This document shows, one piece after another, positions 1,963 through 21,262 of a DNA stretch of 64,000 nucleotides (position 1 is its first letter; every line of letters starts with the position of its first letter). The stretch spans positions 1-64,000 of the forward strand of contig BQJE01000004.1 in the NCBI GenBank assembly GCA_021604545.1, in the 5' to 3' direction. The stretch is from Micavibrio sp. GTDB lineage: Bacteria; Pseudomonadota; Alphaproteobacteria; Micavibrionales; Micavibrionaceae. Position numbers and translations under genes: made by a program. The notes below the pieces were generated by a model, which saw nothing but the letters and a program-made list of their open reading frames with translations, ran no database searches and was not told the origin of the DNA.

Positions 1963-2143
1963 CAAATTACCACCTAACGTTAATTAGAACACATTTTAGA
2001 CAAATTTGGCAAATTTTTTACAGAATCTTTTTTCATAAAAAATATACGATCTAGAGGTTAGGCAATTTTTTGATTGGAATAGTACGAAGGAGAGAGAGTT
2101 TTAAGAATATTTTAGGATTAAAATATCTATTAATATGAGGGGC

Positions 2144-3478
2144 TTACTGGGATATTCGCCCTTTTGTACCTGTCACAACCCATTTGTTGTTTTCGAGGTC
2201 AATGGAGACGATACGGCCTATGCCGCTTAATGTGTCGCCGACCTTAACGGTTTTAAAGTCGCCGGACCCTTTATCTGAGACCATGGCTTTGCCGGGCTGC
2301 GCAGAGCGAAGCGTCCATTTTGCCGATGTGCTTTTTTTGCCGGTTTTGGAAGAATTTATAGTTTTTGCTGGTTTTACAGTAGGTTGAGCTACAGAAGCTG
2401 GTGTTTTATTTGTCGCTGCCGGCTTCTCGATAGTTGGCGCCGCAGATGCGTTAAGAGTGGTTATGCGCTCTTCCAGCTTTGATATGACCTCCGTTAACTC
2501 ACTGATCTTACTATCTGTTCCTGCAATTTTCTTTCCCAGAGCCTCATTGGAATTGGCCATTTTTTGCTCTAATGTCTCGATCTTTTCATAGACTTCTTGA
2601 AGCTGATCTCCATCTGTATTTGCTGCTGTAATGGCTGACTCCGAGGTGGCTTCCATAGCCATTTCAGGCTCTTCTGACTCAATTGCCACAGGTGGTGCCG
2701 GGGGCTCTGATATATCTTCCATGATGAGCTCCAATTTTGGTTCAGGCTCTTCGGGCTTAATTTCTTCGGCTATAACTGGTAGCGGAGAAGCTACTTCAAT
2801 GCCTGCGCTATCTTCTTCCAATGGTTCATCTATAGAAGCCAACTGGCTTTGTTCTGATAAGACGGCCATTTCAGGCATCGGGGTTAAAACTTCAACCTGG
2901 GAAGGAGCGGGCGCTGCTTCCGGTGTAGGCGAGCTCATAGGTGATGGCATGGGTAGTGCTTCGCTAATGCCGGTGGAGAAAGCCTCAGTGTCGACAGCAA
3001 TGGTTTCGCCGGCACTTTCAGTTTCTCCTGTATCCGGCAGAGCGCTGTCCTTTAGGTCTGCAAGGGGGTCCTGTTGTGCGGGTATTTCCGCAGTCATATC
3101 TGTTTGTATGATTGGCGTGTGCGTTTCATCAGGGGAGCCCCCCATTTGTACCAAAAACAACCCACCACCACCTAGAGCGGCAACGGCAACAATGATAATT
3201 TTTAAATTCTTTGAGACGAAGGACTTTCTTTTTGCAGGCTTTTGAACCGGCATGTCGTCATTATCTTCTATGTCGTTCCCGGGTTTGTCTTCCGTCCCGG
3301 CTTCGGCAATCTCAGCATCGGGAATGTCATCAAAATCATCCCAAGAATCATCCCCGAGATCATCATCAAAATCATCGGTGGGGTCGCTCTCATCAGTGAT
3401 GTCGTCGAAATCAAAATCATCTTCATCATCTAGAAGATCATCATCAAAATCATCCGACTGTTTTTCTTCGTCCTGCAT
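2144..3478 (-). CDS. icmG: IcmG/DotF-like T4BSS inner-membrane protein
   Basis: 444 residues with the layout expected of IcmG/DotF. It has a very acidic cytoplasmic N-terminus (runs of Asp/Glu to about residue 75), one membrane helix (about 93-112, LKIIIVAVAALGGGGLFLVQ), a long Pro/Glu/Ser-rich periplasmic linker, a coiled coil at about 290-345 and a small C-terminal domain (about 385-444, KVGDTLSGIGRIVSID). In Dot/Icm systems DotF contacts the DotG/DotH core from the inner membrane. Legionella DotF is shorter (about 270 residues), the extra length here being linker. The small C-terminal domain resembles PilP-like beta modules, which is only an impression. It sits 32 nt after icmE in the conserved gene order. 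No strong ribosome site is visible. The assignment rests on order and architecture more than on sequence identity. Confidence 0.6.
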   Translation of the reverse strand: MQDEEKQSDDFDDDLLDDEDDFDFDDITDESDPTDDFDDDLGDDSWDDFDDIPDAEIAEAGTEDKPGNDIEDNDDMPVQKPAKRKSFVSKNLKIIIVAVAALGGGGLFLVQMGGSPDETHTPIIQTDMTAEIPAQQDPLADLKDSALPDTGETESAGETIAVDTEAFSTGISEALPMPSPMSSPTPEAAPAPSQVEVLTPMPEMAVLSEQSQLASIDEPLEEDSAGIEVASPLPVIAEEIKPEEPEPKLELIMEDISEPPAPPVAIESEEPEMAMEATSESAITAANTDGDQLQEVYEKIETLEQKMANSNEALGKKIAGTDSKISELTEVISKLEERITTLNASAAPTIEKPAATNKTPASVAQPTVKPAKTINSSKTGKKSTSAKWTLRSAQPGKAMVSDKGSGDFKTVKVGDTLSGIGRIVSIDLENNKWVVTGTKGRISQ

Positions 3479-3510
3479 GGTGTATTTATATAGGTTATCT
3501 CAATAAAATC

Positions 3511-4830
3511 CTAGACATCTTTATCATCTTCGGTGACAGCATCAAGGAATAATATGCCTATAGGGGTCCCTGGGGCTATAACAACAGTCACCTCGATGTC
3601 ATCAACGGCCTCACCAATAATTTGTGATAATTCCTGCCCCGCTTCTTGTATGCCAGACGCAATTTCCTCTCGTGAATCTGCATTGCCCGTCTCTGAGACA
3701 GCAGCCCCCCCATCAACGGTAACAGTTGTGAGCCCAGTGTTGGCAATTGCCTCAGCCGCACCTTCGATAAAGGCGGCGGCTGTGGGCAGTATAACCCGCG
3801 CAAAGTAATGATGGTCAACATCTGTCGCCATAGCAGATAGCGTCGTGCCCGGATCGAGGGCAACGGCATCAATATCGTGGCTAACACCGTCAATGACAAT
3901 TATATCAAAATTCAGAGTCAAAAGTTCTCTTGTTTCCTGAAAACTTCCGATAAGGCGACTGCCTGCTAACGGACCAGACGCAATCATTGCTAAAACAGGA
4001 CCGGGCGCATCAGTATTGGCCTCTATAAGAAGTTGACCGTATTCAATGGCTCCGGCAGGAATAATAATTTCTTCAATATCCTGTTCCTCAAACGCGTCAC
4101 CATCGGCACCACCACCGCCATCGGCACCACCACCATTAGCTGCCGCTGCGGCTCTCTCCTGGGCTTCTTCCCTTCGGGCTTGCTTTTCTTCCTTGTCTTG
4201 GGCAAGGCGCTTAAGAAAATCTGAATCTGTTATCTGCAGGGTTGCTAATTTGGTTTCTCCCTGTGCTTCCAGAATAGATTGCATCTGTTGGGAAAGAAGA
4301 TCGGCCAAAGCTGCAACGGCCTCATTGCGTGCCGTATTATCCACCGTTTCGGCTGGCTCTATGGTTTCGCGCTGTTTAATCTCACGTTGCAGACGTTCTT
4401 CTTGCAAACGCCGCCAGCGTTGCAGTGGATCTTCTTCTTCTTCTCCCTGCTCCGGAAGGTTGATACGACCGCGAGGCGGATCAATTGGAACCGGCAGGGC
4501 ACTTCCACCAGTTGCATAGGCTTCCTCAACTTCTTTTTCGTTAAATTCTTTTACAGCATTTACAAAGTTAGGAGATGACTCCTCTGTTCCCGGTACGGAT
4601 GTTAGGTCTGATCCACTGGCAACGTAAGAGGGGTTAAGCGGTTCTGTTTTGCCGCCAAATAGCAAAATTGTTCCAAAAATAGCAGCGCCAGCAGCAAAAA
4701 TAATACCAACTTTGACGAGAGGATTGTTACGCCATAAATCGCCGAGTGTATTTTGCTGCTCGTCAAAATCATCAAAGCTCGCATCGCCGCCTAAATCTTC
4801 ATCAAAATTTTCTTCTAAATCGTCATTCAT
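3511..4830 (-). CDS. icmE: IcmE/DotG, VirB10/TrbI-like core channel protein of the type IVB secretion system
   Basis: 439 residues. An acidic cytoplasmic tail is followed by a membrane helix at about residues 38-58 (VGIIFAAGAAIFGTILLFGG), a Pro/Glu-rich and helical periplasmic stretch (to about 240), a Gly/Ala linker, and a C-terminal beta-domain from IIIPAGAIEYGQL onward. That domain carries the family signature of DotG/TrbI (GPVLAMIASGPLAGSRLIGSF, LTLNFDIIVIDG, GTPIGILFLDAV). The family spans the envelope and lines the core complex. ATG 4830 has AAGGA 8 nt upstream and overlaps the icmK stop by 8 nt, suggesting translational coupling; a longer frame to 4923 lacks such support. Legionella DotG is about 1050 residues because of pentapeptide repeats, which are absent here, so this is a minimal form. 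Confidence 0.85.
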   Translation of the reverse strand: MNDDLEENFDEDLGGDASFDDFDEQQNTLGDLWRNNPLVKVGIIFAAGAAIFGTILLFGGKTEPLNPSYVASGSDLTSVPGTEESSPNFVNAVKEFNEKEVEEAYATGGSALPVPIDPPRGRINLPEQGEEEEDPLQRWRRLQEERLQREIKQRETIEPAETVDNTARNEAVAALADLLSQQMQSILEAQGETKLATLQITDSDFLKRLAQDKEEKQARREEAQERAAAAANGGGADGGGGADGDAFEEQDIEEIIIPAGAIEYGQLLIEANTDAPGPVLAMIASGPLAGSRLIGSFQETRELLTLNFDIIVIDGVSHDIDAVALDPGTTLSAMATDVDHHYFARVILPTAAAFIEGAAEAIANTGLTTVTVDGGAAVSETGNADSREEIASGIQEAGQELSQIIGEAVDDIEVTVVIAPGTPIGILFLDAVTEDDKDV

Positions 4831-6037
4831 TAATAATATCCTTACGGTCTGATATCCGTGCGCGTACTGTGCGCCCATTATCTGATAAAATAAGGACCGG
4901 CGCGTCCTCCATAGCATAAACATGCATACCGTCCGCTGAAGTCATAGAGCTATTCCAGCCAGGGGAGAGAAGTGTATGAGGTGTCCTTATGTAAGTTAGG
5001 CCATTAAATCTATAAGCGCTGGTTCTTCCATCCACACCGGACACAGCCAGTCTTTGACCACCGGGAGGTATAATACCTTCAAGAACAGAGGTGATATTTT
5101 CGTCGCCTGCGCTAATCAAATAACTTTCGCTAACGAAGGGGTCTCTGCTATTGAGGCCACCGCCCTGGCTTTGATTGTTAATAATCGGGACTTCGGCAAA
5201 AGGCCCTTCTTCAGGAATAATTGCATCAAATCTGTAATGAACAATGTCGCGGCTGGATTCTAAAGTCATGATAATTGGTGTTCGAAGACCGATCATCATA
5301 ATGGACATGTTTCCGTATGCAAATTCCGATTCTGGGGATATCCGTAGAATGTTCGAATATTTGGCGTCACCTTCGCCAGTGCCTTCCGTTTCTACGACTT
5401 CAAAATTCCCTGCCCATGTTATATTTTCTACGGGCCAAGGAGCGCCTGAGGTGTCGACAAAATTCACGGTTGTTACATGGCCATGGGCAACTTTAATTGT
5501 TAAAGGCTTTGCTCCCGGGTCGAGAGAAATCGTTTCCACTGTTACCTCCGGCTTAGGGTAAGGATGGACCGGTACCTCTACAGATTCCTGTGTTCGGTCA
5601 AAATGCTCGAGCAGTTCGCGAATTTCACCTGGTTTCAGAGGCAAAAGGCCTTGCAACGCTGCATCAAAAGCTTCCTTCCGTGTAAGAGCTTCAAGTTCTT
5701 CCGGAGTTTGTTCGAATTCAAACGATTTCCCGCCCTCTTCATTATCGGTGGCAAAGATATCATCCTCATCATCAGGTAGTGAAAAAGCAGAATTGCCCCC
5801 TTGCTTGCTACTACCATCATTTAGTTCTTCGGATGGGGGTAGATCAGGCAGTTTTAGACCGGGAAGCCCTCTTTCAGAGTCTTGAGCTTCGGCGACAGGC
5901 ACGAAAGCAAATATAAACAAAGCAAGAAGAGCCGTCGTGACGGTTCTTCTTGTCAAATACAGGAAAGCGGAGAGCTTTGGGCTGGGCTCCATTAGTTTCG
6001 TCCATTCTGCGTGGTAAATTTTTATGCTTTTGAGCAT
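4823..6037 (-). CDS. icmK: IcmK/DotH, outer-membrane core component of the type IVB secretion system
   Basis: 404 residues, exported. A signal peptide follows ARRTVT-type basic residues and ends near VAEA-QDSE. The middle is acidic and Pro-rich. From about residue 160 the conserved DotH/TraN domain appears (PLTIKVAHGHVTTVNFVD, APWPVENITWAGNFEV, YGNMSIMMIGLRTPIIMTLES, DIVHYRFDAIIP). In Legionella DotH forms the outer-membrane ring with lipoproteins DotC and DotD and the DotG C-terminus; homologues of all of these are in this window. It lies between icmL and icmE, with an 8-nt overlap into icmE. The first ATG is at 6037; ATG 5992 gives a neater signal peptide (MEPSPKLSAFLYL) and may be the true start. 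Confidence 0.85.
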   Translation of the reverse strand: MLKSIKIYHAEWTKLMEPSPKLSAFLYLTRRTVTTALLALFIFAFVPVAEAQDSERGLPGLKLPDLPPSEELNDGSSKQGGNSAFSLPDDEDDIFATDNEEGGKSFEFEQTPEELEALTRKEAFDAALQGLLPLKPGEIRELLEHFDRTQESVEVPVHPYPKPEVTVETISLDPGAKPLTIKVAHGHVTTVNFVDTSGAPWPVENITWAGNFEVVETEGTGEGDAKYSNILRISPESEFAYGNMSIMMIGLRTPIIMTLESSRDIVHYRFDAIIPEEGPFAEVPIINNQSQGGGLNSRDPFVSESYLISAGDENITSVLEGIIPPGGQRLAVSGVDGRTSAYRFNGLTYIRTPHTLLSPGWNSSMTSADGMHVYAMEDAPVLILSDNGRTVRARISDRKDIINE

Positions 6038-6144
6038 TACTTACCCAATGTTATCAAAAAGAATATATCGGATCACAGTAAGTGTCACCCTTCAATCATA
6101 GAAAAGCGCAAATAATTAACAAGGTTTGGAGGAATTAAAAGGCT

Positions 6145-6840
6145 TTATCTTGGAATGGCGATCCATTGTTCAATACCAACGCCATTCGGACTTTCCAGAC
6201 GTGGCACACGTACGACAACAACGCTAACCAACAGGCTATCGCTCCTGGTTTTTGAGCCTGATTGATAGGTTACAATCAAAGGTAGTTCGACAATCCATTG
6301 ATATCGCCCGGCAATCTCAGATTCTGATACCAGTATAGGCGCGCCTTGCGGCGCAGCGGTTACAACCTGCTGATTGGTTTCAACCATTTCAATAATCCGT
6401 GATTTCTGCAAGGCTGTGGTGAAGCTGTCCCATCCTTTTCGGGTAAAGTTACGAGAGGCTTCCTGCAACCGGCGGCGATAATCGTTAAATCCAAAAGTCA
6501 TGACTTCTGTACAAGCTTGGGCAACCCATGACATCAGAGCCGGCGTGCTCAAATTCGGCTGATTGAGTGATACCATGGGAATCAGGCGCCCATCTTCCGT
6601 GGTGGCAAAATACCTGTTTTCGGGCTGGTGAACGTGAATAACGAAATACATGGAACCGAGCAGAGCCAGAATAATAATACCCTGTAAAACAGCCAAGCGT
6701 AGCAGGCTGCGATAACCGTCGCGATAAAACTCGTTACGGACAACGACAGTCCCAAGACCACCTGAATCCTGATTGGCGGCCTCTTTTACGTCATTCTTTT
6801 TTTCTGCAGCCTCTGCAGAGTCTTTTTTCTTCATTACCAT
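6145..6840 (-). CDS. icmL: IcmL/DotI, T4BSS inner-membrane protein
   Basis: 231 residues, close to the usual IcmL/DotI size (about 212). It has a charged Lys/Asp/Glu-rich N-terminus, one membrane helix at about residues 48-68 (LAVLQGIIILALLGSMYFVI) and a periplasmic NTF2-like domain. Family features are FYRDGYRSLLR before the helix, PENRYFATTEDGRLIP after it, then LSTPALMSWVAQACTEVMTFGFNDYRR, FTRKGWDSF and the ending GIEQWIAIPR. DotI and its partner DotJ form an inner-membrane subcomplex in Legionella. This is the first gene of the left minus-strand dot/icm block, about 105 nt before icmK. It is divergent from the exported-paralogue genes starting at 7022, so the 6841-7021 space probably holds promoters in both directions. 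Confidence 0.88.
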   Translation of the reverse strand: MVMKKKDSAEAAEKKNDVKEAANQDSGGLGTVVVRNEFYRDGYRSLLRLAVLQGIIILALLGSMYFVIHVHQPENRYFATTEDGRLIPMVSLNQPNLSTPALMSWVAQACTEVMTFGFNDYRRRLQEASRNFTRKGWDSFTTALQKSRIIEMVETNQQVVTAAPQGAPILVSESEIAGRYQWIVELPLIVTYQSGSKTRSDSLLVSVVVVRVPRLESPNGVGIEQWIAIPR

Positions 6841-7021
6841 GATTTATTGCTTTAACCCAGGTTACGACAGGTACAACATTTACCATTCTGTAATAAAAAA
6901 ACGCGATTAACAAGCACTATGAAACGTGCCATTTTATAGGACGTTGTGATAGAATTAAGATTGGGTTTGAATAAAATTTTAGGAATATGTCTAACCTTCG
7001 TGTTTGGCTCAGGGTGTATAT

Positions 7022-8398
7022 ATGGTGAGTGAGAAACAGAAAACAGGTAGTAAGACTTTGTTTTACAAAATAAAAACCACAGCAAGGATGTTGGTTTTTA
7101 TCGTGTGTATATTTGCTTTTTCTCTTACAACTACTCCCCGTCCGGCTTATGCGCCGTGTCTTGGCTGTTTTCCCGGTGATGCAGAAGCTGGGGCAGAGCT
7201 GGTTAGATTATTTCATTCCATAGGCGAACCACTCATGAAAACTCATATTTCTAATGAGTTTCAGGCGCATAGAGACTGGTTGGTAGAAGATTTTTTTATA
7301 GAGAACGTGCTGCCCGCTCTCATGATGTTTACCGAACAAATGTCGGCTGTGGCCATACAGCAGGTCCTCATAATAGGAACCTTCCTGGACGCCAAACATC
7401 AACTTGAAACTCAGCGTTTGTTCCAGCAATTACAGGCTCAGGCCCATAAGGATTATCATCCCAGTGAAGATTTTTGCTGGTTTGGCACAAATGTCAGAAG
7501 CATGGCCAATTCTGAATCACGGGGTCGGCATCATGCCGTTGCGATGTCCCAGCGCGCTTTAGCGCGGCATTTGGGTAATGCCAATGTGAACTCCTCGAGG
7601 AATCGTGATCAGGATAAGGGCGGAAGATGGCGGCAATTTACCAGCGTATATTGTGACCCCAAAGATAATAACTGGGATTCCGATGCCAATGGAACCGGAC
7701 TGGTTCTGGCTTGTGGTGCTGCAGGCGGAGCGGAAAAAAATCGTCGGAATCACGATGTTGATTATACACGTCTGATCGATGAGCCGCGCAGTTTTAACTT
7801 TGATTTTGTAGGTGATTTTGGAGAGATCAAGACAGGTGATGAAGAAGACATTATTGCTATGGCCAGCAATCTCTACGGCAATGATGTCCTAACACGAAAT
7901 GCCAATAAAGAAAATCTGAAGAACAAGCAGGCTCAGCATCTTTATCTTACGCTACGTTCAGTGGCGGCAAAGCGCAGTGTTGCTGAAAATTCCTTTAACG
8001 CCATTGTTGGTCTGAAATCCTTTGGTACGTCGGATTATGACGGCAATGAGCCGATGACAAGGAAATATATGGGGGCTGTTTTGTTTGAATTGGGGGTTCC
8101 GGAAGAAGAAATTTTTCTTATTCTTAAAGAGCGCCCCAGCTATTACGCGCAGCTTGAGATTCTAGCCAAAAAGATTTACCAAAATCCGGATTTCTACGCC
8201 AATCTTTATGATAAGCCTGCCAATGTGGCGCGTAAGAAAGTCGCACTGCAGGCGATAGAGCTTATGCTGGATCGGGCGATCTATGAAAGTCAGATCAGAC
8301 AGGAAATGGTGATGTCCGTTTTGCTTTCCAGCAAGCTCAGGGATAGTTTCCGGGATGTGAACAAGGATATGGTCGGTATGATGAATGTAGGGAATTAA
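7022..8398 (+). CDS. Exported protein of an unassigned three-member paralogous family, copy A
   Basis: 458 residues, family not recognised. ATG 7022 follows AGGGTG. A signal peptide (about residues 1-42) ends in RPAYA and is followed at once by CLGC, a CxxC pair. The shared domain runs from about residue 85 to the end. Its marks are EQMSAVAIQQVLIIGTFLDA, KHQLETQR, LQAQAHKDYHPS, CWFGTNVRSMANSESR, YCDPKDNN, DYTRLIDEP, AKRSVAENSFNAI, PSYYAQLEILAKKIYQNPDF and YDKPANV. It contains no membrane helix beyond the signal, so it is probably periplasmic or secreted. The conserved cysteines suggest disulfides. It overlaps copy B by one base (TAATG) and is divergent from icmL. The placement suggests a partner or substrate of the T4BSS; the function is unknown. 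Confidence 0.85.
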   Translation: MVSEKQKTGSKTLFYKIKTTARMLVFIVCIFAFSLTTTPRPAYAPCLGCFPGDAEAGAELVRLFHSIGEPLMKTHISNEFQAHRDWLVEDFFIENVLPALMMFTEQMSAVAIQQVLIIGTFLDAKHQLETQRLFQQLQAQAHKDYHPSEDFCWFGTNVRSMANSESRGRHHAVAMSQRALARHLGNANVNSSRNRDQDKGGRWRQFTSVYCDPKDNNWDSDANGTGLVLACGAAGGAEKNRRNHDVDYTRLIDEPRSFNFDFVGDFGEIKTGDEEDIIAMASNLYGNDVLTRNANKENLKNKQAQHLYLTLRSVAAKRSVAENSFNAIVGLKSFGTSDYDGNEPMTRKYMGAVLFELGVPEEEIFLILKERPSYYAQLEILAKKIYQNPDFYANLYDKPANVARKKVALQAIELMLDRAIYESQIRQEMVMSVLLSSKLRDSFRDVNKDMVGMMNVGN

Positions 8399-9750
8399 TG
8401 AAGCATTTGATGATAAAAAAAGTCAAAAAATTTGTTTTGTTTTCGGCGGTGCTGATCGGCGCCGTATTTTCTTTTTCTCCCATACACAAGCAGGCTTATG
8501 CATGTGATTGGTGTATCGATGCAATGATACAAGCTTTACCCGAAGAATGGCTGCAGGATACCAGCGGTGGCGGTGCCGCAGGTGGAAGTGGGTCTGGTCC
8601 TACCGTTCCTGTTATCAATGACCATGTTACTGCAGAATTTGAAGAGCACAGAACATGGATTGTTTCCCTTTTATGGGAGGATAATATTTTACCGGCCATG
8701 ATGTTAATGGCTGAACAATTGACAGCAGTAGCAATGCATCAGGTGTTAATCATAGGGGCGATGCTCGATGCTAAACACCAGTTGGAAACACAACGTCTAT
8801 TGCAGCAATTACAAGCTCAAGCTCATAAGGATTATCACCCCAGCATCGGTATGTGTGAATTTGGAAGTGCTGCAAAAAGCCTTGCTGCCTCTGAGCGCAA
8901 GTCAGAATATAATTCTATCCTGATGAGCCAAAGATCAATGGACCGCCAACTTGGTAATGCTAATAGCAGTGCTATGTACGGGAATGATCTCGATAAAGAA
9001 AGTCGCCTGAATCAGTTTAAAGCAAAATTTTGTGATCCCAAGGATAACAATAACGGTTTGGGTTATATGTGTGAGGCACCGGGTGCGGACAAAAATCGTT
9101 ATAACAAGGATATTGATTACACTAGGACAGTTGATTACCCTTGGACCCTCGATATTGATTTTACCAATGGAGGAACGCCAACGGAACATGAAGAAGAAGT
9201 TTTTGCCCTCGCAAACAATCTCTATGCTCACCATGTTTTTGCACGGCCCAGCGGCAAACTTCTTGAACCCTTGCCGGATGGTACGTTAACCAACCTGCAG
9301 AAAAAATATCTTGATATGCGTTCAATTGTTGCCAAGCGTAGCGTTGCTGAAAATTCTTTTAATGCTATTACGGCTATGAAGGCGCAAGGCCTTCCTGAAT
9401 CAAGAGATTTCCTGATAGCGATGCTTGATGATCTGGGTGTTGTAGATGCGAACACAATCGATCTTATTGGTGAGAACCCCAGCTATTATGCGCAGATGGA
9501 AATGCTGACCAAAAAGATTTATCAAAATCCTGACTTCTACACAAATCTCTATGACAAGCCTGTAAACGTCGAAAGAAAAGGTGTCTCTATGCAGGCTATT
9601 GCGTTGATGCAAAAGTTTGACATGTTTAAAAGTTATCTTCGCAGTGAAGCCTCTTTGTCTATTCTTCTTGAGTTGGCAGTTATGGACCTTCAGGACGAAA
9701 TTGAAAACGAAATTAATCCGCTGGCGGGCGTTGGCGAGCTTGCACAGTAG
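8398..9750 (+). CDS. Exported protein of the same unassigned family, copy B
   Basis: 450 residues, starting at the ATG that overlaps the copy A stop. The signal peptide (about 1-35) ends HKQAYA and is followed by CDWC, again a CxxC just after cleavage, then a short Gly-rich linker. The shared domain has the same blocks as copy A: AEQLTAVAMHQVLIIGAMLDA, KHQLETQRLLQQLQAQAHKD, CEFGSAAKSLAASE, FCDPKDNNNG, NKDIDYTRTVDYPWTLDIDF, AKRSVAENSFNAI, NPSYYAQMEMLTKKIYQNPDF and YDKPVNVERKGVSMQAIALM. Translational coupling to copy A suggests the two are made together. No enzymatic motif is visible. A tightly linked pair differing mainly in the N-terminal 80 residues suggests a heteromer, which is inference. 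Confidence 0.85.
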   Translation: MKHLMIKKVKKFVLFSAVLIGAVFSFSPIHKQAYACDWCIDAMIQALPEEWLQDTSGGGAAGGSGSGPTVPVINDHVTAEFEEHRTWIVSLLWEDNILPAMMLMAEQLTAVAMHQVLIIGAMLDAKHQLETQRLLQQLQAQAHKDYHPSIGMCEFGSAAKSLAASERKSEYNSILMSQRSMDRQLGNANSSAMYGNDLDKESRLNQFKAKFCDPKDNNNGLGYMCEAPGADKNRYNKDIDYTRTVDYPWTLDIDFTNGGTPTEHEEEVFALANNLYAHHVFARPSGKLLEPLPDGTLTNLQKKYLDMRSIVAKRSVAENSFNAITAMKAQGLPESRDFLIAMLDDLGVVDANTIDLIGENPSYYAQMEMLTKKIYQNPDFYTNLYDKPVNVERKGVSMQAIALMQKFDMFKSYLRSEASLSILLELAVMDLQDEIENEINPLAGVGELAQ

Positions 9751-9792
9751 CGGCAGTCTAACCTTAATATGAGGTTGTAAGATTTTAATATA

Positions 9793-12700
9793 ATGAGAGT
9801 GGCAGCAGGAAAAATATTACTATCAATTATTACTCTGGCTTTATGTCTGGGAAGTTTTTCTTTTGTTTATCCTGTGCTTCCGGTTCAGGCGTCACCGCAA
9901 GAGAAAGAACTGGAGGCAAAACAAGAGCCATCAGTTAGAGAAAACAGATTACATCCGGATGTAAGAATAACATTCCAGATTATTTCTGCAGAAGGGTATC
10001 CGCAGACGGGAACAGCCACGATGGGCGAGACGGGGTTGATTTTACTGCCGGCTTTAAATTTCGCAGAGAGCGGGCTCGTTTATAATCTGATGATCGATGA
10101 TAAAGAGCAGGGAAAGCTTATAAATCTTATGCTGCGTTTTAATCCGTTGACGGGTCAGGTTTCTGCTTCGGGTTCCGGTTTTGATGAATTTGCAAATATT
10201 GCTTTTGATAAGAAAACGGGCCTACGTAGTGTTACAACCGATTGGGCCGGCTCTTTTAATGAACCCGCGTTTTTAGAAGCAGACGATTTATTAAGTTGTG
10301 GGACCCTCAATCTTTCTTTTCAAAGTCATGATCTGGATAATGTTGGAGAATTACGACCGCCCACAATCATCAAAATACAGCTTGATATAGACCCAGCAGC
10401 GCTCATAGAAGGAGCTGCTACAGCAGCAACTGAGAACATCAGCATTGAAGGTCCTGGCGGAATTCAAATTGATGGGCAGAGTTTAATCAATGGTACTGCC
10501 AATTTAAAGCAAAAAGCCGCAGAAGCTCTACAAGAAAATTTTGGAGACTTTGCAAACGATTTATCTGGAACTTTGCAAGATGAGATTGGTGGACAGTTGA
10601 TAGCCGAGCTTGGAATAACTCCACAACAAGCCCAGCAGGTTTTAAATTCGGCGGATCTCGAGCAAGTTGTGCTGAACAATTTGGGTGCAGGGCAAGAGGT
10701 ATTTAAAGCGGTTGTGTTGGAAAGTGTCACAGCTAGTGCAGAACAAATATTGGGAATATCTCCAGAAGAAATTAAAAATCTTGCGGCGGCAGATATTAAA
10801 GATACTATCGAGGATACTTTAACACAGAATTTTGGTATATCAGGAGAAACTTTCTCAGAAGTTTCACAAATTTTTACAGATACTTCAGACGCTATCAGTC
10901 AAGCTGCAGATAAGATTGCAGATGATATAAAAGCCCAATTTGAGGCAGAACAAAAGGCATTACAGGATGCGGTGACGTCAAGGATAACCGAATCTTTAGG
11001 AAGTGGCCTGGGTGTAAGCGCAGAAGAACTTCAGGCAGTTTTGGATGGAAATGTTGAAGGTGCTATACAAGATGCTGCAAAGGCGCAAGCAGAGGCCTTC
11101 CAAAAAGAATTTTTAGCCAGCGCCAGCGCCAGTTTGGCCGCCGCGGGGATAGATTCATCGACTCTTGGGGCTGCGCAAGAGCTTATCAATGGAGATTACG
11201 AAGCACTAATAAAAAGTGGTTTAGCGGCCGAATCAGAGGCCTTCCAAAAAGAATTTTTAGCCCGTACCAGCGATAGTTTGGCTGGGTTGGGGATAGACGC
11301 ATCGACTCTTGGAGCTGCGCAAGAGCTTCTCAATGGAGATTACGAGCAGATTTTACAAGACGCTCTAGATGCAGAAATAGAAGCTTTCCAAGAAGCTTTT
11401 ACGGATGAAGTGGCTCAGGCTCTGGCAGATAGTTTGGGAGTAGATCTGGCGCTTGTCCAAGATCTTTTAGATGCGGATTTTGAGGCACTTTTGGAGGAAG
11501 GTTTGGATGCAGCGCGAGAAGCTGCGGAAGAGGCTTTGACCGAAGCTTTTGAGCAAGCACAGCAAGAATTAATAGATGCCACATTAGGGGAGCTCGGGTC
11601 AATTGCGGACGAGTTGTTAGACTCTTTGGCAGATATTTTTGGAAGCGAGGTTGCAGAACAGTTTGGCGAGGTATTTGCTACTTTTTCTGATGCTTTGGCC
11701 CTTGATATTGAGAGTATTTTTGGGAGTTTTGCTGGTTCCTTCACTGGCGGCGGTGGTGGCGGAGAAGGCTTTACAGCAGAAGGCGGCGGCGGTCCAGGCC
11801 CAGAGGGGGTTAATGAATTCGTTGCAGCGACCAACAAGGATTTAAGTACAAGTGATACAGGGCATTTACAGGATACTGTAGACAAAATAGTCGAAAATTA
11901 TGTCACAGCTTTGATGATGATGACCGAGCAATTATCGGCCGTTATGATTCAGCAGGTTGAGGGTATCGGCTTGCTTCTTGATGCGAAGCACCAACTTGAA
12001 AGCCAACGTATTTTACAAACACTCCAGGCTAAAGCCCATAAGGATTATCACCCTAGCGATCAAATGTGCCGTTTTGGAACATTTATAAGAAGTGTTGCCA
12101 ATAGCGAGTCAAAATCTGAAGCAGATCAAAGGCAGTTGAATGAAGTTTTGATGGAGCGGTATCGCAATGTAGAACACACCAGTTCATCAGAAGGACTTTA
12201 CCTTGATGTCGCCGCGCGGCTTGACCAATTCAGGACAGTTTATTGTGACCCGAAGGACAATAATAATGGCCTTATATATATGTGCGATCATGATGGATTC
12301 TTTGGTGACGGGGAAGTTGGAGGTCAGGATAAAGACCGTTTAAACAAGGATATAGATTATACGCGCACCGTCGATTATCCCCTTACACTGAGTATGGATT
12401 TTTCCGCCGGCGCAAAAACCAATGATATGGAAGACGTTATCGCGCTGGGTAAATATCTGTACTGGCCTGCTGTCATAGAGCCCGTTCCCGATCCAGTCGT
12501 GGCAGAGCGTTATAAGCCATATCAGAATTTTCGTAGAATTATTGCCGTTCAAAATGTTGCGCATAACAGCTATGCCAGCATTGTCGGTATGAAAAGCAGC
12601 GCTCAGGATAGAATAGGTGAAGATAGTGGCTGGACTTTTATGAAAGCATTTTTGCGTGAATTTAATGTAATAGTAGATGGTGATGACGCAATTCAGAGAT

Positions 12701-12984
12701 ATATGGGTGAATTGCCCAGCTATTACGCGCAAATGGAAATATTAACCAAGAAGATTTACCAGGATCCTGATTTCTATACCAACCTCTATGATAAGCCGGC
12801 CAATATTAAGCGTAACGGTGTTTCTATGCAGGCCATAGCTTTAATACAGAATAGGGATCATTTTGAATCAATGTTACGTCGTGAAATGCTTATTTCGCTC
12901 ATGGTTGAAGAGGAGCTCCTGAAGCATACAGAAGAGACCAATGTGCGTCTTTACAGCGGCATGAAAAAGACCCAGAACCCATAA
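9793..12984 (+). CDS. Large exported paralogue, copy C, with helical repeat insertion
   Basis: 1063 residues. A signal peptide (about 1-35, ending VQASPQ) precedes a beta-rich N-terminal domain (about 55-195, HPDVRITFQIISAEGYPQTG). A long alanine-rich helical region follows (about 205-640), built from about 45-48-residue units of the pattern LGI(D/S)xxxLxxxxELLNGDYExxL plus AExEAFQKEF. Next is a Gly-rich hinge (about 650-675). The C-terminal part (about 690-1060) is the family domain shared with copies A and B (MMTEQLSAVMIQQVEGIGLL, AKAHKDYHPSDQMCRFGTFI, VYCDPKDNNNG, DIDYTRTVDYPLTL, YYAQMEILTKKIYQDPDF). It lacks the CxxC found after the signal in A and B. It starts 42 nt after copy B, so the three probably form an operon. 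The fibre-like middle suggests an extended surface or periplasm-spanning protein. Confidence 0.85.
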   Translation: MRVAAGKILLSIITLALCLGSFSFVYPVLPVQASPQEKELEAKQEPSVRENRLHPDVRITFQIISAEGYPQTGTATMGETGLILLPALNFAESGLVYNLMIDDKEQGKLINLMLRFNPLTGQVSASGSGFDEFANIAFDKKTGLRSVTTDWAGSFNEPAFLEADDLLSCGTLNLSFQSHDLDNVGELRPPTIIKIQLDIDPAALIEGAATAATENISIEGPGGIQIDGQSLINGTANLKQKAAEALQENFGDFANDLSGTLQDEIGGQLIAELGITPQQAQQVLNSADLEQVVLNNLGAGQEVFKAVVLESVTASAEQILGISPEEIKNLAAADIKDTIEDTLTQNFGISGETFSEVSQIFTDTSDAISQAADKIADDIKAQFEAEQKALQDAVTSRITESLGSGLGVSAEELQAVLDGNVEGAIQDAAKAQAEAFQKEFLASASASLAAAGIDSSTLGAAQELINGDYEALIKSGLAAESEAFQKEFLARTSDSLAGLGIDASTLGAAQELLNGDYEQILQDALDAEIEAFQEAFTDEVAQALADSLGVDLALVQDLLDADFEALLEEGLDAAREAAEEALTEAFEQAQQELIDATLGELGSIADELLDSLADIFGSEVAEQFGEVFATFSDALALDIESIFGSFAGSFTGGGGGGEGFTAEGGGGPGPEGVNEFVAATNKDLSTSDTGHLQDTVDKIVENYVTALMMMTEQLSAVMIQQVEGIGLLLDAKHQLESQRILQTLQAKAHKDYHPSDQMCRFGTFIRSVANSESKSEADQRQLNEVLMERYRNVEHTSSSEGLYLDVAARLDQFRTVYCDPKDNNNGLIYMCDHDGFFGDGEVGGQDKDRLNKDIDYTRTVDYPLTLSMDFSAGAKTNDMEDVIALGKYLYWPAVIEPVPDPVVAERYKPYQNFRRIIAVQNVAHNSYASIVGMKSSAQDRIGEDSGWTFMKAFLREFNVIVDGDDAIQRYMGELPSYYAQMEILTKKIYQDPDFYTNLYDKPANIKRNGVSMQAIALIQNRDHFESMLRREMLISLMVEEELLKHTEETNVRLYSGMKKTQNP
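11091..11378 (+). repeat. 144-bp direct repeat inside copy C
   Basis: Two near-identical units start at 11091 and 11235 (both begin AGAGGCCTTCCAAAAAGAAT), a period of 144 bp or 48 codons. Similar but more diverged units flank them on both sides and make up the alanine-rich helical region. The high DNA identity of just these two units indicates a recent tandem duplication. Confidence 0.85.
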
Positions 12985-13169: not shown

Positions 13170-15554
13170 ATGGGCTTAGTCGGATTGGATGCTGCGCTTT
13201 CTGGGCTGCGGGTTTCGCAGCAGCAGATCGGTGTCATATCCAATAATATCGCAAATGTAAGTACTCCAGGCTATACGCGGAAGATTTTACCTCAATCTTC
13301 TCAGGCTATTGAAGGGGTTACGATTGGCGTTATAGGCGAAACCATCATTCGTCAGGTCGATTTAAATCTTCAGCGGGATTTATGGACACAGATTAGTAGT
13401 GTCGGCGAACTTAATGTTCAGCAGGCTTATTTGAGCCGTATAGAGCAGTTTCATGGACCGCCGGATCGAGAATTATCGATTGCGGCAGAAATTTCCCGTC
13501 TTCAGGACAGTTTTGTGGCTTTGGCTGATAGTCCCGAAGATAGTTTTTTGCTGGCTGCAACTGTTAACCAGGCAACAGACACTGCAAATAAATTTAATGA
13601 TTTATCAAATCTGATCACGACTTTGCGCAATGATGCGCAGGCGGATATTCAAAGCACGGTCACTCGAGTTAACAGCCTTCTCAACCAAATTGCCGATTTG
13701 AACAAACAGGTTCAGGTGAATAACAATACTGGACGCACGACGGCGATTCTCGAAGATCAACGGGATGAAGCGATTAAAGAGCTCACGGGCTTGATCGATA
13801 TCAGTTTTTTCAAGCGCGGAGACGGCGTGCTGGTGGTTCAGACTAATCTCGGTGTACAACTCGCAGATGAGAGGGTAACGCCGCTGACATTTGATCCTTC
13901 GCCAGTATCAGCGGTCAGCTATTATCCTGATTCCGTCGCCGGTATTTTTGTTGGTGACCCTGCGAGCAATCCGGCGGCTGTTGATATCACAACAAGCTTT
14001 CCCGGTGGGCGCCTGGGTGGATTGATCGAATTGCGCGATAGTATTTTTCCCAAACAGATGGCGCAGCTTGATGAGCTTGCGCATAAAATGGCCTTACGGT
14101 TTGAAGCGCAGGGATTGCGTCTTTTTACCGATGCCTCAGGCGCTGTTCCGGCCGATACAGCGCCTGATCCATCGGCGGGCCCACCGCCTACGGCGGTTAG
14201 TTACATTGGTTTCTCTGCGACGATCCAAGTGAATGATGCAATCATTATCGATAGTTCTCTTTTACAACAGGGAACCGTGGCGACTGACGCGTCGGTACAA
14301 CCTGGATCAAGTGAAGTGATTCGCCGAATTTTAGAATTTACTTTTGGTGATGTGGATTTCCAACAGGCGGTTGGTTCGGTTGATCTCCGTGCCTCGCTTG
14401 CCGGTGGCGGACCGTTTAGCCTGCAGGACTGGCTTGGCGCATTCTCAGAAAATACAATCACAAGCACACGTGATATTGCCTCGATTGGCCCGGATCTCAT
14501 TACAAAGCTTGGTGGGCCGTTTGTGGTGCCGGGTGCTGATACATTTTCTATTACAATTGACCCGGGTACTGAAGGGCCAGGTCCGATTGGCCCCCTTCTG
14601 GTTGATATGAACGCCATTCCACCAGCCGGGAATGCGACGGCGGCAGATTTGGCCACATTCATTGATGGTTTGGACCCAGATATCAGTGCGACAATCAATA
14701 GTTTTGGTCAGCTGGAAATTACCAGCCGCTGGGATATTAATATCGCTGACGTAAACATGGGACAGGTAGGCTTTGATTTTCTGGGCTTACCACAGGGAAC
14801 GATTAATGCGACCGACCCGTATTTTGATGTTCAGGTCGGTAACGATGCCCCCGTGCGGATCACGATATTACCGGGTGATGATGAAAATGATCTCATCGAC
14901 AAGCTAATTCTCGATCCTCTTATTCCGGGTGATGTTGGGGTTGCGGGTCTGGCTTATGACGCCGTAACGTTTGCAGCAACGGGTGAGCTGATCCTGCGGC
15001 CCGGCGACGATTTTGCCAATCCGGTTTTTGGTGGTGATATTAAAATTACATCCGGACCTTTTAATGTTGATGCGGCGACAGCTGAGATAAATTTGGCGGT
15101 ACCTGGAACATTATCTGATGGTATTTCATTTGTTTCTTCTCTATTTGGCAGCTTTAGCGCTGGTCCGCCAATACAGGATTTATCTCCTGTTACCAACACG
15201 TCATACGGATCAGAAATTTCTGTGGCTAATACCAATTTGATTTCTTTCAGACAGGATCTGCTGGGGCCAGGCGCCAGTATATCTACTAATCTTATTGGTT
15301 CGAATCGTCTTATTGATTATGCCCAGAAGATGGTAAATGAACATTCACAACAAATACTTTTAAACGAAAGCCGTTTGGAAGATGAAGAAACGTTGCAAAA
15401 TGTTTTACAAGAACAAATCCTAAATGATTCTGGTGTAAATCTGGATGAAGAGCTTTCAAATTTAATTGTTTTTCAAACCGCTTTTGCTGCTTCAGCGCGG
15501 GTTGTTAATGCAATTGATGAGTTATTTCGCGAATTGCTGGACGCTGTGCGTTAG
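13170..15554 (+). CDS. flgK: Flagellar hook-associated protein 1 FlgK
   Basis: 794 residues; forms the first hook-filament junction layer outside the cell. The N-terminus (GLVGLDAALSGLRVSQQQIGVISNNIANVSTPGYTR) is the rod/hook family signature with the NNIANxxTPGY motif. An FlgK-type coiled region follows (LITTLRNDAQADIQSTV, VNSLLNQIADLNKQVQ, DQRDEAIKEL). The C-terminal helix (LIVFQTAFAASARVVNAIDELFRELL) is also characteristic. The middle (about 300-640) is a large beta-rich surface domain, making the protein longer than the about 550 residues of enterobacterial FlgK. The start has AAGGGAC upstream. A -24/-12 promoter precedes it and flgL follows 30 nt later. Its place between two dot/icm blocks is unusual; the rest of the flagellar regulon is not in the window. 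Confidence 0.93.
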   Translation: MGLVGLDAALSGLRVSQQQIGVISNNIANVSTPGYTRKILPQSSQAIEGVTIGVIGETIIRQVDLNLQRDLWTQISSVGELNVQQAYLSRIEQFHGPPDRELSIAAEISRLQDSFVALADSPEDSFLLAATVNQATDTANKFNDLSNLITTLRNDAQADIQSTVTRVNSLLNQIADLNKQVQVNNNTGRTTAILEDQRDEAIKELTGLIDISFFKRGDGVLVVQTNLGVQLADERVTPLTFDPSPVSAVSYYPDSVAGIFVGDPASNPAAVDITTSFPGGRLGGLIELRDSIFPKQMAQLDELAHKMALRFEAQGLRLFTDASGAVPADTAPDPSAGPPPTAVSYIGFSATIQVNDAIIIDSSLLQQGTVATDASVQPGSSEVIRRILEFTFGDVDFQQAVGSVDLRASLAGGGPFSLQDWLGAFSENTITSTRDIASIGPDLITKLGGPFVVPGADTFSITIDPGTEGPGPIGPLLVDMNAIPPAGNATAADLATFIDGLDPDISATINSFGQLEITSRWDINIADVNMGQVGFDFLGLPQGTINATDPYFDVQVGNDAPVRITILPGDDENDLIDKLILDPLIPGDVGVAGLAYDAVTFAATGELILRPGDDFANPVFGGDIKITSGPFNVDAATAEINLAVPGTLSDGISFVSSLFGSFSAGPPIQDLSPVTNTSYGSEISVANTNLISFRQDLLGPGASISTNLIGSNRLIDYAQKMVNEHSQQILLNESRLEDEETLQNVLQEQILNDSGVNLDEELSNLIVFQTAFAASARVVNAIDELFRELLDAVR

Positions 15555-15584
15555 AGAATTAAAGATCTTAGAAAGGAATAAAAA

Positions 15585-16772
15585 ATGACAGGTGTTTCAA
15601 CATTAGGACAGGCTTTGGCCCAGATCGAAAGGTTTAAAGATGTTCAGTCCCGGTTTGCAACACTGAGTACGCAACTGGCAACAGGTAAAAAAACTCAGAA
15701 ATTTACGGGTTTAGGCAACGATATTCTGACATTGCAACGGGCGCGCGCTGATTTTAAATCTCTTGATACGTTTACAAATAATATTATTCATGCCGATCGC
15801 AGGATTAAAACGACATTGAATACGATTGAAGAGTTTAAAGCGCAGGCTGAAAGTTTTTCAGCGGCGCTTGTTGGATTTTCACAGGAAAGTACGCATCAGG
15901 AAGGTGACATTGTCTATTTTGATGATCCAGCCACGCCAAATGTGGTTGAAAATGTACAGATTGGCTATACATCGGCAACGCCGGATATTGATTTTCAGAC
16001 TTTGCAGGATCTTGCCAGCAATCTATTTGATTTCATGGTTAATCTTCTTAATGAGCAGGATGGTGATCGGTTTGTTTTGGCTGGGGCAGAAACGACAACC
16101 AGACCTTTGGTTGATAGCGGGACATTGGATACGGCTGTAAGCTCTTTGCTGGCCGGTTGGAAAACTGCTGGTATTACAACAACAGAGCTGATTAGCGGTT
16201 TACGAAGCAGCGATGCCAGTGTTGACCCGAATGCAGTAACAGATGGTGTTATTGGCTATTCCGCACCGCTTAGCTCAGGTGCTGTGAAGGATGTTTTTGT
16301 TCGTGTTGATGATAACACGGAACTGGATTATACCGCGTTAGCCAATGATCCGGCCTTTAGAGATATTCTTGTGGCGTTGGCGTATTTTAAAAATGAAAAC
16401 CTTCCGCCAATTGCTGATGAAATAGATCCTGTAACCAACGCAGTTACTACAGAAGGGGCGCCCGGCACGACTCTTGATGAAATGAAGGATAATTTCTATC
16501 AGGTGTTTAATGATCTAACTGGGATGGTTAATAGCGCTATTGATCGTATAGATCGGGTGCGATTTAAACTGGAAACAGTTCGTGCTCGGATTGATGAGAT
16601 TCAGCAAAGCCATAAAGAAGAACAAAACCTTCTTGTCGGTACGATTGATAATATCGAGAACGTAGATATTAACGAAGTAGCAGTTGAAATTAATTCCCTG
16701 CAAATTCAGCTTGATGCTTCTTTTCGTGTAACGGCACGGTTACAGCAACTTAGCCTGGTTAACTTTATTTAG
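15585..16772 (+). CDS. flgL: Flagellar hook-associated protein 3 FlgL (flagellin-like)
   Basis: 395 residues with the flagellin/FlgL fold at both ends. The N-terminal helix pair (STLGQALAQIERFKDVQSRF, LSTQLATGKKTQKFTGLGND) and the C-terminal helix (ENVDINEVAVEINSLQIQLDASFRVTARLQQLSLVNF) are the coiled D0/D1 segments. The middle is a variable beta domain with the conserved NxxDGDRFVLAGAETTTRP-like segment. Pairing directly behind flgK argues for FlgL over filament flagellin. The ribosome site AAAGGA lies 6 nt before the ATG. It is probably cotranscribed from the promoter at 13096. Its stop codon overlaps the stop of the opposite-strand gene by 4 nt, leaving no room for a terminator between them. 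Confidence 0.9.
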   Translation: MTGVSTLGQALAQIERFKDVQSRFATLSTQLATGKKTQKFTGLGNDILTLQRARADFKSLDTFTNNIIHADRRIKTTLNTIEEFKAQAESFSAALVGFSQESTHQEGDIVYFDDPATPNVVENVQIGYTSATPDIDFQTLQDLASNLFDFMVNLLNEQDGDRFVLAGAETTTRPLVDSGTLDTAVSSLLAGWKTAGITTTELISGLRSSDASVDPNAVTDGVIGYSAPLSSGAVKDVFVRVDDNTELDYTALANDPAFRDILVALAYFKNENLPPIADEIDPVTNAVTTEGAPGTTLDEMKDNFYQVFNDLTGMVNSAIDRIDRVRFKLETVRARIDEIQQSHKEEQNLLVGTIDNIENVDINEVAVEINSLQIQLDASFRVTARLQQLSLVNFI

Positions 16773-18034
16773 GATCTATCTTTAACGACGAGAGTCATTT
16801 TGTCGTCGGCATTTTCTTTGCTCAGCATCTCGTGATCTGGGCTAGTAGAAGGATTGGTAGCCCGAACAAAAAGCACCTTAACAGCGCTGTCGAATGTTCC
16901 GTTCACCATTACATTAGAGTCCAGCGCATAATCATGTGAGGCTTCCCACACCAGTTCCGCACCGGCTTGTTTGCTCCATCCACTTAAAGTTGTTTTAAGG
17001 CTATCCCCTTGTTTTGCTTCCCATGTTTTTAACACGCTGTTATTTTGTCTTGGTTCAACCTGCAGGGTATTTTCGTCAGCTTTTATAGTTGAGCTTTTTG
17101 CAGGCAGGATATCAACTTTGGAATTACTATTTGCTGGTTGGTTGGAGACTAATTTCCCAGGAGTTTCTCCGGGATCTGTAATGTTAATTCTTCTTGAGCC
17201 CCCTGCCTGTGGTTCCTGCTTTTGCGGTTTGATCATGGATAGATCTTCATCAGAGCTCTGACCAGATTTTGAGATGCTCACGGTTTTTTTATAAATTCTG
17301 GCTGATAAATCCAGTGGCGCAACCATGTCATTTACAACCTCATTCCACGGGCGCCCACCATTCCAGGAAACACGATATCCGGGGTTAACACCATCACCGA
17401 AACTGAAAGAATATTCCGGCGGTACAACCTGGCGCAAAGCTAGAGCCAGCGGTAGATCCGATCCGAATCCAATGACTTCAGGATAGGTCTTGGGTTCGAT
17501 TTTATACTGCCGCTTTTGGGGTGCGGGCGCTGTAGAAGCTTCCATCATTTCATGGGAAGTTGTTCCGTGCGGAAACGGATGAATAGAAACATTTTTTTTC
17601 TGTTTTGGCGTTTTATGAGTGTTTACGGGCGGCACTCTTTCCGTTTTTACCCTTGGTCTTAGATCCATTTCCGGCATAGGCGCCGGTGGTGGCGAGACAG
17701 TTTTTATTTTCATGATATGTTTCGGATCAGATTCAAGTTCCTCTATATCCAGTGTTTGCGTTTTTGCGGGGGCAGGAGCTGATTTACCGACAACGGGTTT
17801 AGCCTGAGTTGGTTCAATCTCTATTGATTCAACGGGAACCGTTTTAAGTGAGGGCGGCTGATCAGATGATATGGATGCAGGCGGCGGTGTTATAATGGGT
17901 GGTGGCTCTGCTTTTGGCGGCGGCGGGGTCCACTCAAAGCCAGCTTGGGCGTTATTCCCTAGATTAAACATAGAGGCACTCGAAATAACGAGTGCTAAAA
18001 ACACAAAAAATATTTTACGTATCGTTATAGACAA
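16769..18034 (-). CDS. Exported protein with two TcpQ-like domains, T4BSS-associated
   Basis: 421 residues. A signal peptide (about 1-31, ending NNAQA) is followed by a Pro-rich linker (about 35-165). Then come two regions resembling the TcpQ/PilL-type secretin-associated fold: about 185-262 (FGSDLPLALALRQVVPPEYSF, YRVSWNGGRPWNEVVNDMV) and about 330-415 (WEAKQGDSLKTTLSGWSKQAGAELVWEASHDYAL, VNGTFDSAVKVLF). TcpQ-type domains help secretins or outer-membrane rings assemble. DotD has a related secretin N-domain-like fold, so this protein may be an extra periplasmic or outer-membrane part of the Dot/Icm core. It is the last gene of the right minus-strand block, 141 nt after icmT, and ends over the flgL stop. 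The domain call is by pattern only. Confidence 0.65.
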   Translation of the reverse strand: MSITIRKIFFVFLALVISSASMFNLGNNAQAGFEWTPPPPKAEPPPIITPPPASISSDQPPSLKTVPVESIEIEPTQAKPVVGKSAPAPAKTQTLDIEELESDPKHIMKIKTVSPPPAPMPEMDLRPRVKTERVPPVNTHKTPKQKKNVSIHPFPHGTTSHEMMEASTAPAPQKRQYKIEPKTYPEVIGFGSDLPLALALRQVVPPEYSFSFGDGVNPGYRVSWNGGRPWNEVVNDMVAPLDLSARIYKKTVSISKSGQSSDEDLSMIKPQKQEPQAGGSRRINITDPGETPGKLVSNQPANSNSKVDILPAKSSTIKADENTLQVEPRQNNSVLKTWEAKQGDSLKTTLSGWSKQAGAELVWEASHDYALDSNVMVNGTFDSAVKVLFVRATNPSTSPDHEMLSKENADDKMTLVVKDRS

Positions 18035-18175
18035 TATTCTATTCCGGTTCGTTTAAATTAGGGCAACAGCCCTCCTGCCGCGCTTCTTGATACCATACTA
18101 ATATGTAGGGTAAAGCCTTAAATTTCAACATAAAGTGCTGTTTTGAAAAATACAAGAATATAGCAGCGGTTAGAT

Positions 18176-18475
18176 TTATCCATAATCAGTAAATTTCTTT
18201 TTATGTGCCGAAATCCAGCCAGGTCTTTCAGAACCGACAACCCAGGATCTTAAATTCCGTATGGCGGAAGGAAATGTTAGCCCCTTATTTTCAAGTAAAC
18301 GGAACAAAATCAAGACAATGATAGAAAGCGTAATTGTTGATGTACGGGCATAGACGAGCAATATGGGCAGAGGAAGAGCGGCGCGGGCATCAAAGCCAAA
18401 AAACCGGATTGTGCGCATAGTATTGCGCCAATGCCAGTTCATTTTCTCCTGAATATTCTCAATTTCTTTCGCCAT
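18176..18475 (-). CDS. icmT: IcmT-like T4BSS inner-membrane protein
   Basis: 99 residues, close to IcmT (about 86). It carries the family signature HWRNTMRTIRFFGFDARAALPLPILLVYAR followed by a hydrophobic segment (TITLSIIVLILFRLLE), then GLTFPSAIRNLRSWVVGSERPGW. IcmT/TraK is a small inner-membrane protein needed for full function of IVB secretion and IncI conjugation, with an unclear mechanism. The start has GGAG 9 nt upstream. It follows dotB by 94 nt and precedes the TcpQ-like gene; in Legionella icmT heads a different cluster, so the placement next to dotDCB is a rearrangement. Confidence 0.83.
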   Translation of the reverse strand: MAKEIENIQEKMNWHWRNTMRTIRFFGFDARAALPLPILLVYARTSTITLSIIVLILFRLLENKGLTFPSAIRNLRSWVVGSERPGWISAHKKKFTDYG

Positions 18476-18569
18476 TTTCTCTTTCTCCGTAACTTTTATG
18501 CTTAAAAAGAAATTCTAGCCGATAATGCTTAAGAGTTTGTTTATAAGGATAAAAACCTTAACGCTACTC

Positions 18570-20593: not shown

Positions 20594-20606
20594 GATGAAT
20601 AATCCT

Positions 20607-21113: not shown

Positions 21114-21262
21114 GAGCGTTTGGACCCTGATCAAAAACATGACGTCACGGGCTTTTTTAGACAAAAGCCGCACGAATCAAGATTAGCTCGTCAAATTCGT
21201 GATCGCAAGCGGGCAATAGCGATATGCCAAGACTATCTTCAGCTTTCTTTTCAATAATGGTT

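Follow-up and report, generated by a model that had tools for sequence, protein, structure and literature searches.

Three tandem Micavibrio genes in a Dot/Icm locus as diverged, amplified members of the IcmX/TraW family

What part do three adjacent genes of an unnamed family play when they stand between the two halves of a type IVB secretion locus? This question is raised by a 64,000-nucleotide stretch of a Micavibrio sp. genome (GenBank assembly GCA_021604545.1, contig BQJE01000004.1, positions 1 to 64,000; hereafter the window), which is the start of contig 4 of that genome. A first-pass annotation, made from the letters of the window, could link the shared domain of these genes to no known part of a type IVB secretion system (T4BSS) and put forward an undescribed system. 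As single sequences, the three proteins had no convincing match in Pfam or NCBIfam and so could not be named through such comparison. Combining several lines of evidence, we conclude with high confidence that they belong to the IcmX/TraW family, which supplies the VirB5-class subunit of Dot/Icm (type IVB) systems, and that they are copies multiplied in tandem and since diverged. The genes, here called copies A, B and C, are:

7022-8398, plus strand: copy A (ATG at 7022), with a putative signal peptide, an N-terminal Cys motif and an IcmX/TraW-type domain; a member of the ancient clade A.
8398-9750, plus strand: copy B, with a putative signal peptide and an all-helical IcmX/TraW-type domain.
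9793-12984, plus strand: copy C, with a putative signal peptide, immunoglobulin-like (Ig-like) beta domain(s), a helical repeat stalk, a Gly-rich linker and an IcmX/TraW-type domain.

The coordinates of the open reading frames (ORFs) confirmed the packing described in the first-pass annotation: at the A/B junction, TTAATG, the final base of the TAA of A is the first base of the ATG of B, a one-base overlap, and C follows B after a gap of 42 nt. Searching the window's own 2.15 Mb genome with B recovered A (50% identity, E value 8.6e-105) and C (49% identity, E 4.5e-94, limited to the C-terminal third of C) with no further match, and these E values place the paralogy of the three copies far beyond chance. 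The paralogues share about 50% identity across about 370 amino acids; the common domain, put at about 350 residues in the first-pass annotation, is confined in C to the last ~370 residues. Each N-terminus, read by eye, has a basic stretch, then a hydrophobic one, then a cleavage site of the AYA/QAS type, which together with the ORFs and mutual E values agrees with the description of three adjacent, probably exported paralogues.

We built an AlphaFold2 model of B on a 68-row alignment. The model is all-helical, with a mean predicted local distance difference test score (pLDDT) of 86 and very long helices at 70-146 and 388-444; the domain includes Cys153, Cys212 and Cys225. Among 350,542 Protein Data Bank (PDB) chains, its top Foldseek match was 9ngy_AP1, a chain of the DotA-IcmX protochannel from Legionella, with an E of 1.5e-3 and a probability of 1.00. 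The runner-up had an E of 1.6, and no VirB5 or TrwJ structure was matched at E up to 10. Because a DotA query identified chain FP1 of 9ngy (1048 aa) as DotA, the 417-residue chain AP1 is IcmX by elimination.

Profile comparison by hhalign connected the same family to TraW, the latter represented by an alignment of the R64 protein and those of nine other plasmids. A broad family profile (A5) matched TraW at 97.4% (E 1.4e-11, 290 columns, 13% identity). In the controls, 100 column-shuffled TraW profiles gave at most 1.6% and the reversed TraW profile 0.1%, and the unrelated helical family FlgL gave 0.2% and 0.1%. When 399 genomes of the phylum were scanned with the family profile, the only credible non-self match was a true conjugative TraW, 46% identical to TraW of R64. 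The NCBIfam model NF033888 (conj_TraW) matched two of the 68 family members (best 2e-6 and 23 bits, with its cut-off of 100 bits not passed) and a distant copy in genome G427 (3.3e-5), and had no match in the window's own genome. Lying below this cut-off, the family is not a strict TraW equivalog and forms a separate subfamily of the same superfamily.

A cysteine triad, Cys-59-Cys-13/14-Cys, is common to the family and TraW, with which the comparison was made. Gene order points the same way: in G427, a distant alphaproteobacterium, the order is dotI-traN-dotG-traQ-traU/icmB-family copy-dotA/traY, so that its single copy sits between icmB/traU and dotA/traY, the slot of traW (compare traU-traV-traW-traX-traY in R64). 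The family thus resembles TraW of IncI/IncL-M plasmids in profile, cysteines and slot; unlike the amplified copies here, plasmid TraW is single and serves conjugation. A 2025 review equates TraW with IcmX and VirB5, and TraY with DotA and VirB6 (PMC12624023).

The family also keeps company with dot genes. Within the order it was found in 129 of 142 genomes, and dotI-family matches in 138 of 142, a few of these being weak secondary matches only. Copies form head-to-tail arrays, mostly of 2 to 5, and nearly all genomes with the locus retain at least one or two. Outside the order, six of 381 genomes of the same class had a family match, five of them convincing; all five carry dotI, a gene present in just 13 of these 381 genomes (P about 1e-7 by Fisher's test, the sixth, doubtful match being counted against co-occurrence). 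In families f1 and f7 the array is the divergent neighbour of dotI, and in f3 and f5 it adjoins TcpQ-dotB-dotC-dotD, with a few arrays located apart; a dot cluster is likewise carried by G024, a complete single contig of 2,458,610 bases (L074, L191). Two checks that the first-pass annotation had proposed, co-occurrence and neighbourhood, both came out in favour of a Dot/Icm connection, and its refuting condition, homologues widespread in Dot/Icm-free genomes, failed for the convincing homologues outside the order. Its suggestion of a surface or pilus-like component was close, the family being Dot/Icm-associated, probably exported and lineage-enriched. This co-occurrence with dotI, the fold match, the TraW profile homology, the cysteine triad and the traW slot in G427 are together the grounds for the IcmX/TraW assignment.

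Some cases were set aside. Three good genomes (G031, G034, G092) lack both the family and a strong dotI; flgK is missing too while three dotA genes remain, so a whole block is absent en bloc, perhaps through an assembly gap or a real deletion, and we did not count them as co-loss. Matches in G375 and G834 were short and weak, and we judged them to be chance. Separately, the T4BSS core is also amplified in a non-Micavibrio alphaproteobacterium (G242, L094), which has four tandem IcmX-like copies and four tandem DotI-like genes (G242:C24:52247-54950) but a single DotA of full length. A family member is likewise encoded on a 3.8 kb contig labelled Verrucomicrobia (L108, JADYZA010000151.1), probably a mis-binned Micavibrio contig.

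In a FastTree phylogeny of 126 copies, with local supports only and long branches outside the family core, the core resolves into three well-supported clades. The 20 rows of clade A are mostly genes that open the array, the 20 of clade B mostly occupy the penultimate place, and the 24 of clade C without exception close it. Additional copies resembling A or B arise through lineage-specific duplications. Copy C is distinguished by what precedes its family domain:

9964-10386, plus strand: beta-sandwich region with at least nine strands, conserved among orthologues of class C.
11090-11395, plus strand: helical tandem repeat with a 144-nt (48-aa) unit in about 2 copies, inside a longer helical stalk.
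11779-12927, plus strand: IcmX/TraW-type domain; the Gly-rich linker ahead of it is at about 11740-11820.

The N-terminal region of C was modelled as a beta sandwich (pLDDT 73), and its closest structural neighbours are Ig-like repeats from giant adhesins of bacteria (4p99, E 1.8e-4; 6xi3, 3.6e-4), with a template modelling (TM) score by target of 0.54 against the single domain 4kdv. In this model it resembles an Ig-like, adhesin-like domain. The fold is common to C and the repeats of MpAFP and its relatives; sequence similarity to these is undetectable, and in C the domain is fused to a secretion-tip protein. It is also the fastest-evolving piece that we measured, with 50% identity to the nearest congener as against 94-95% for DotI and DotB.

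The partner expected for an IcmX-type protein, DotA, is itself multiplied. Three tandem dotA genes (ORFs of 999, 898 and 900 aa) lie on another contig of the window's genome (G000:C3, about 199,900-208,400; L158), and nearly every tested genome of the same family likewise has three, in three positional classes. Elsewhere the number in the tested genomes is one in f2, f4, f6 and f7 (one genome without a match), one or two in f5 and one to four in f3; G026 and G052 had no DotA match, the only such cases among the genomes tested. To our knowledge, the near-constant three tandem dotA genes of this family are undescribed. A rule of one IcmX per DotA was considered and rejected, the copy numbers not being locked.

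IcmX is normally a single-copy protein. The array family is like Legionella IcmX in being a probably exported, all-helical T4BSS protein of about 420-450 amino acids with IcmX as its best PDB fold match and DotA in the same genomes. It is unlike IcmX in its 2-5 paralogues per array in the Micavibrio family, in its three DotA and in the Ig-like extension that one class bears at the N-terminus. The axis of the Legionella machine is occupied by a pentameric protochannel of DotA and IcmX, which gates the machine and extends on activation (PMC12857230, PMC12981334). Judging from work on Legionella and R388, A, B and C would be exported to the periplasm and oligomerise (as a pentamer in IcmX) atop DotA in the machine axis, where the oligomer would keep the resting channel plugged and would extend outward upon firing. 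By homology, then, A, B and the IcmX-type domain of C very probably form a plug or tip on DotA.

With several tips and three DotA bases available, the machine could build different or mixed tips. A and B would form the channel-gating oligomer, and C, whose adhesin-like domain is carried on a helical stalk and a Gly linker, would reach out and bind a target, which in a lineage of predators would most likely be the surface of the prey cell. A precedent exists in the Trw system of Bartonella, in which the amplified VirB5 copies TrwJ1 and TrwJ2 bind the host receptor, band 3 of the erythrocyte (PMC3406051), and in which trwI, a VirB6 gene, and trwH have been amplified together with trwJ (PMC2883598). 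The likeness is one of working principle: a VirB5-class tip tandemly amplified and VirB6 multiplied, in a system whose speciality is target-cell contact. Trw differs in being a type IVA rather than a type IVB system, amplified independently, with the erythrocyte as target, and the model of B had no fold match to VirB5 or TrwJ. On the strength of the array architecture and the Trw precedent, we regard it as evenly poised whether tips of alternative or mixed make-up are built from the copies, with C contacting the target through its adhesin-like domain. That the target would be bacterial prey is suggested by the known lifestyle of Micavibrio. Taken as a whole, an explanation of the array as amplified IcmX/TraW copies serving as a diversified tip and gatekeeper set for prey contact seems likely to us. 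Its fullest form, in which the Micavibrionales Dot/Icm, with a multiplied VirB5/VirB6 module and the adhesin-tipped IcmX-type protein C, recognises and injects bacterial prey through interchangeable or mixed tips, in convergence with Bartonella Trw, is tentative, and we think it somewhat more apt to fail than to hold.

Several observations weigh against this explanation. The fold match between B and IcmX is partial (230 columns, TM 0.30, root-mean-square deviation 8), and direct sequence searches of the PDB with the family or with TraW gave no match to IcmX itself. A narrower family profile (A2) fails against TraW (0.9%), so that the TraW link depends on the inclusion of distant family members. 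IcmX-like copies and DotA vary independently, numbering 2 and 3 in G024 and at least 4 and 1 in G038. The Ig-like match concerns a common fold, on a model of middling confidence, and the divergence of A and B is on a par with that of DotG, DotH and DotA. Surface exposure, expression and prey binding of A, B and C are predicted, and the predator status of this genome is assumed from relatives. We had also considered faster evolution of A and B as a sign of prey-driven selection, which was unsupported.

Of the other explanations, one makes A, B and C obligate subunits of a single hetero-oligomeric plug or tip, for example a mixed pentamer on three DotA, with a structural role and no choice of target. 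The old orthologous classes, in fixed A-B-C order across many genera with C always last, would fit such an assembly, as would a dotA set nearly constant at three in this family and likewise in positional classes. We nevertheless consider it unlikely, since arrays of one and the same family have anything from 2 to 5 copies against a steady 3 DotA, f3 includes genomes with a single DotA plus several copies, and a pure plug would need no adhesin-like domain of the C type.

A second possibility is that the array encodes secreted T4BSS substrates of IcmX ancestry that no longer act in the apparatus. The copies are diversified and tandem and their products probably exported, and Legionella cultures contain a truncated IcmX in the supernatant, outside the cells (PMC12981334). 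Against this stand the Sec-type signal peptides (read by eye), the apparatus-protein core conserved in every copy, the apparatus-type gene slot in a distant relative, the retention of one or two copies in nearly all locus-bearing genomes and the absence of any known toxin domain in Pfam or NCBIfam searches, and together they make it improbable. The proposal of the first-pass annotation, an undescribed system peculiar to the lineage and having no relation to known T4BSS parts, draws on the lack of a convincing single-sequence match and is contradicted by the homology in profile, fold, cysteine pattern and gene slot, which identifies the family as an IcmX/TraW, VirB5-class component and leaves that proposal highly improbable.

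The tip and gatekeeper explanation thus concerns a kind of part that is already known. As far as our literature search goes, what is new is the IcmX/TraW assignment, the tandem A/B/C amplification throughout Micavibrionales, the tripling of dotA and the adhesin-like part of C. The presence of Dot/Icm in seven marine Micavibrionales has been mentioned in passing, as a mere number (PMC9418006), and no type IV system was reported when the M. aeruginosavorus genome was published (PMC3189940); the genes extend beyond that mention to nearly the whole order. Prey attack by Micavibrio-type epibiotic predators is poorly understood, and the identity of the array offers a testable mechanism, namely which tip touches prey and which gates the channel. 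For the study of type IV secretion, the array provides a natural series of IcmX variants with which to ask which Dot/Icm part, if any, contacts the target membrane.

The surroundings of the array agree with the first-pass description of two Dot/Icm blocks on the opposite strand, a left block at 262-6840 (dotI/H/G/F and traQ-like genes) and a right block at 16769-21173 (a TcpQ-domain gene, dotB, dotC and dotD), the latter separated from the array by plus-strand flgK and flgL (13170-16772):

262-1965, minus strand: traQ-like membrane protein (NF033883, 6.9e-15, under the curated cut-off).
2144-3478, minus strand: dotF-like gene (NF038218, 1.7e-8, weak).
3511-4923, minus strand: dotG/icmE, VirB10 class (NF033900, 7.5e-47, under the curated cut-off, C-terminal part only).
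4823-6037, minus strand: dotH/icmK, VirB9 class (PF12293, 5.1e-69).
6145-6840, minus strand: dotI/icmL, VirB8 class (PF11393, 2.4e-65).
6841-7021, no strand: divergent intergenic region from dotI to copy A.
16769-18034, minus strand: TcpQ-domain protein of the dotB block (PF10671, 2.8e-13).
18570-19727, minus strand: dotB ATPase (TIGR02524, 2e-115).
19706-20614, minus strand: dotC, a TraI homologue (R64 TraI, 8e-28).
20607-21173, minus strand: dotD-like lipoprotein, placed by gene order beside dotC/dotB and conservation in relatives.

The T4BSS gene set of the host thus comprises dotB, dotC, dotD, dotG, dotH and dotI in the window and dotA on another contig; icmB is at the corresponding place in relatives, and the window's contig begins before that place. 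A promoter and terminator scan that included the intergenic region showed no excess over shuffles or chance. No NikB-like ORF (relaxase) was seen in the stretches read, the whole genome not having been searched for a relaxase. Several families (L063, L067, L097, L103) again have flgK/flgL associated with their T4BSS locus. A second, diverged DotI-like gene lies away from the main locus at G000:C6:72254-72691 (L197; E 4.5e-17), and several relatives have one too. Farther along, within 34279-47924 of the window, a TpsB-like transporter gene (34279-36033, minus strand) is divergent from a gene for a 3771-aa protein that, read by eye, begins with an N-terminus of the haemagglutinin type, contains many GGSGG repeats and parallel-beta-helix-like repeats, and is probably a two-partner secretion adhesin.

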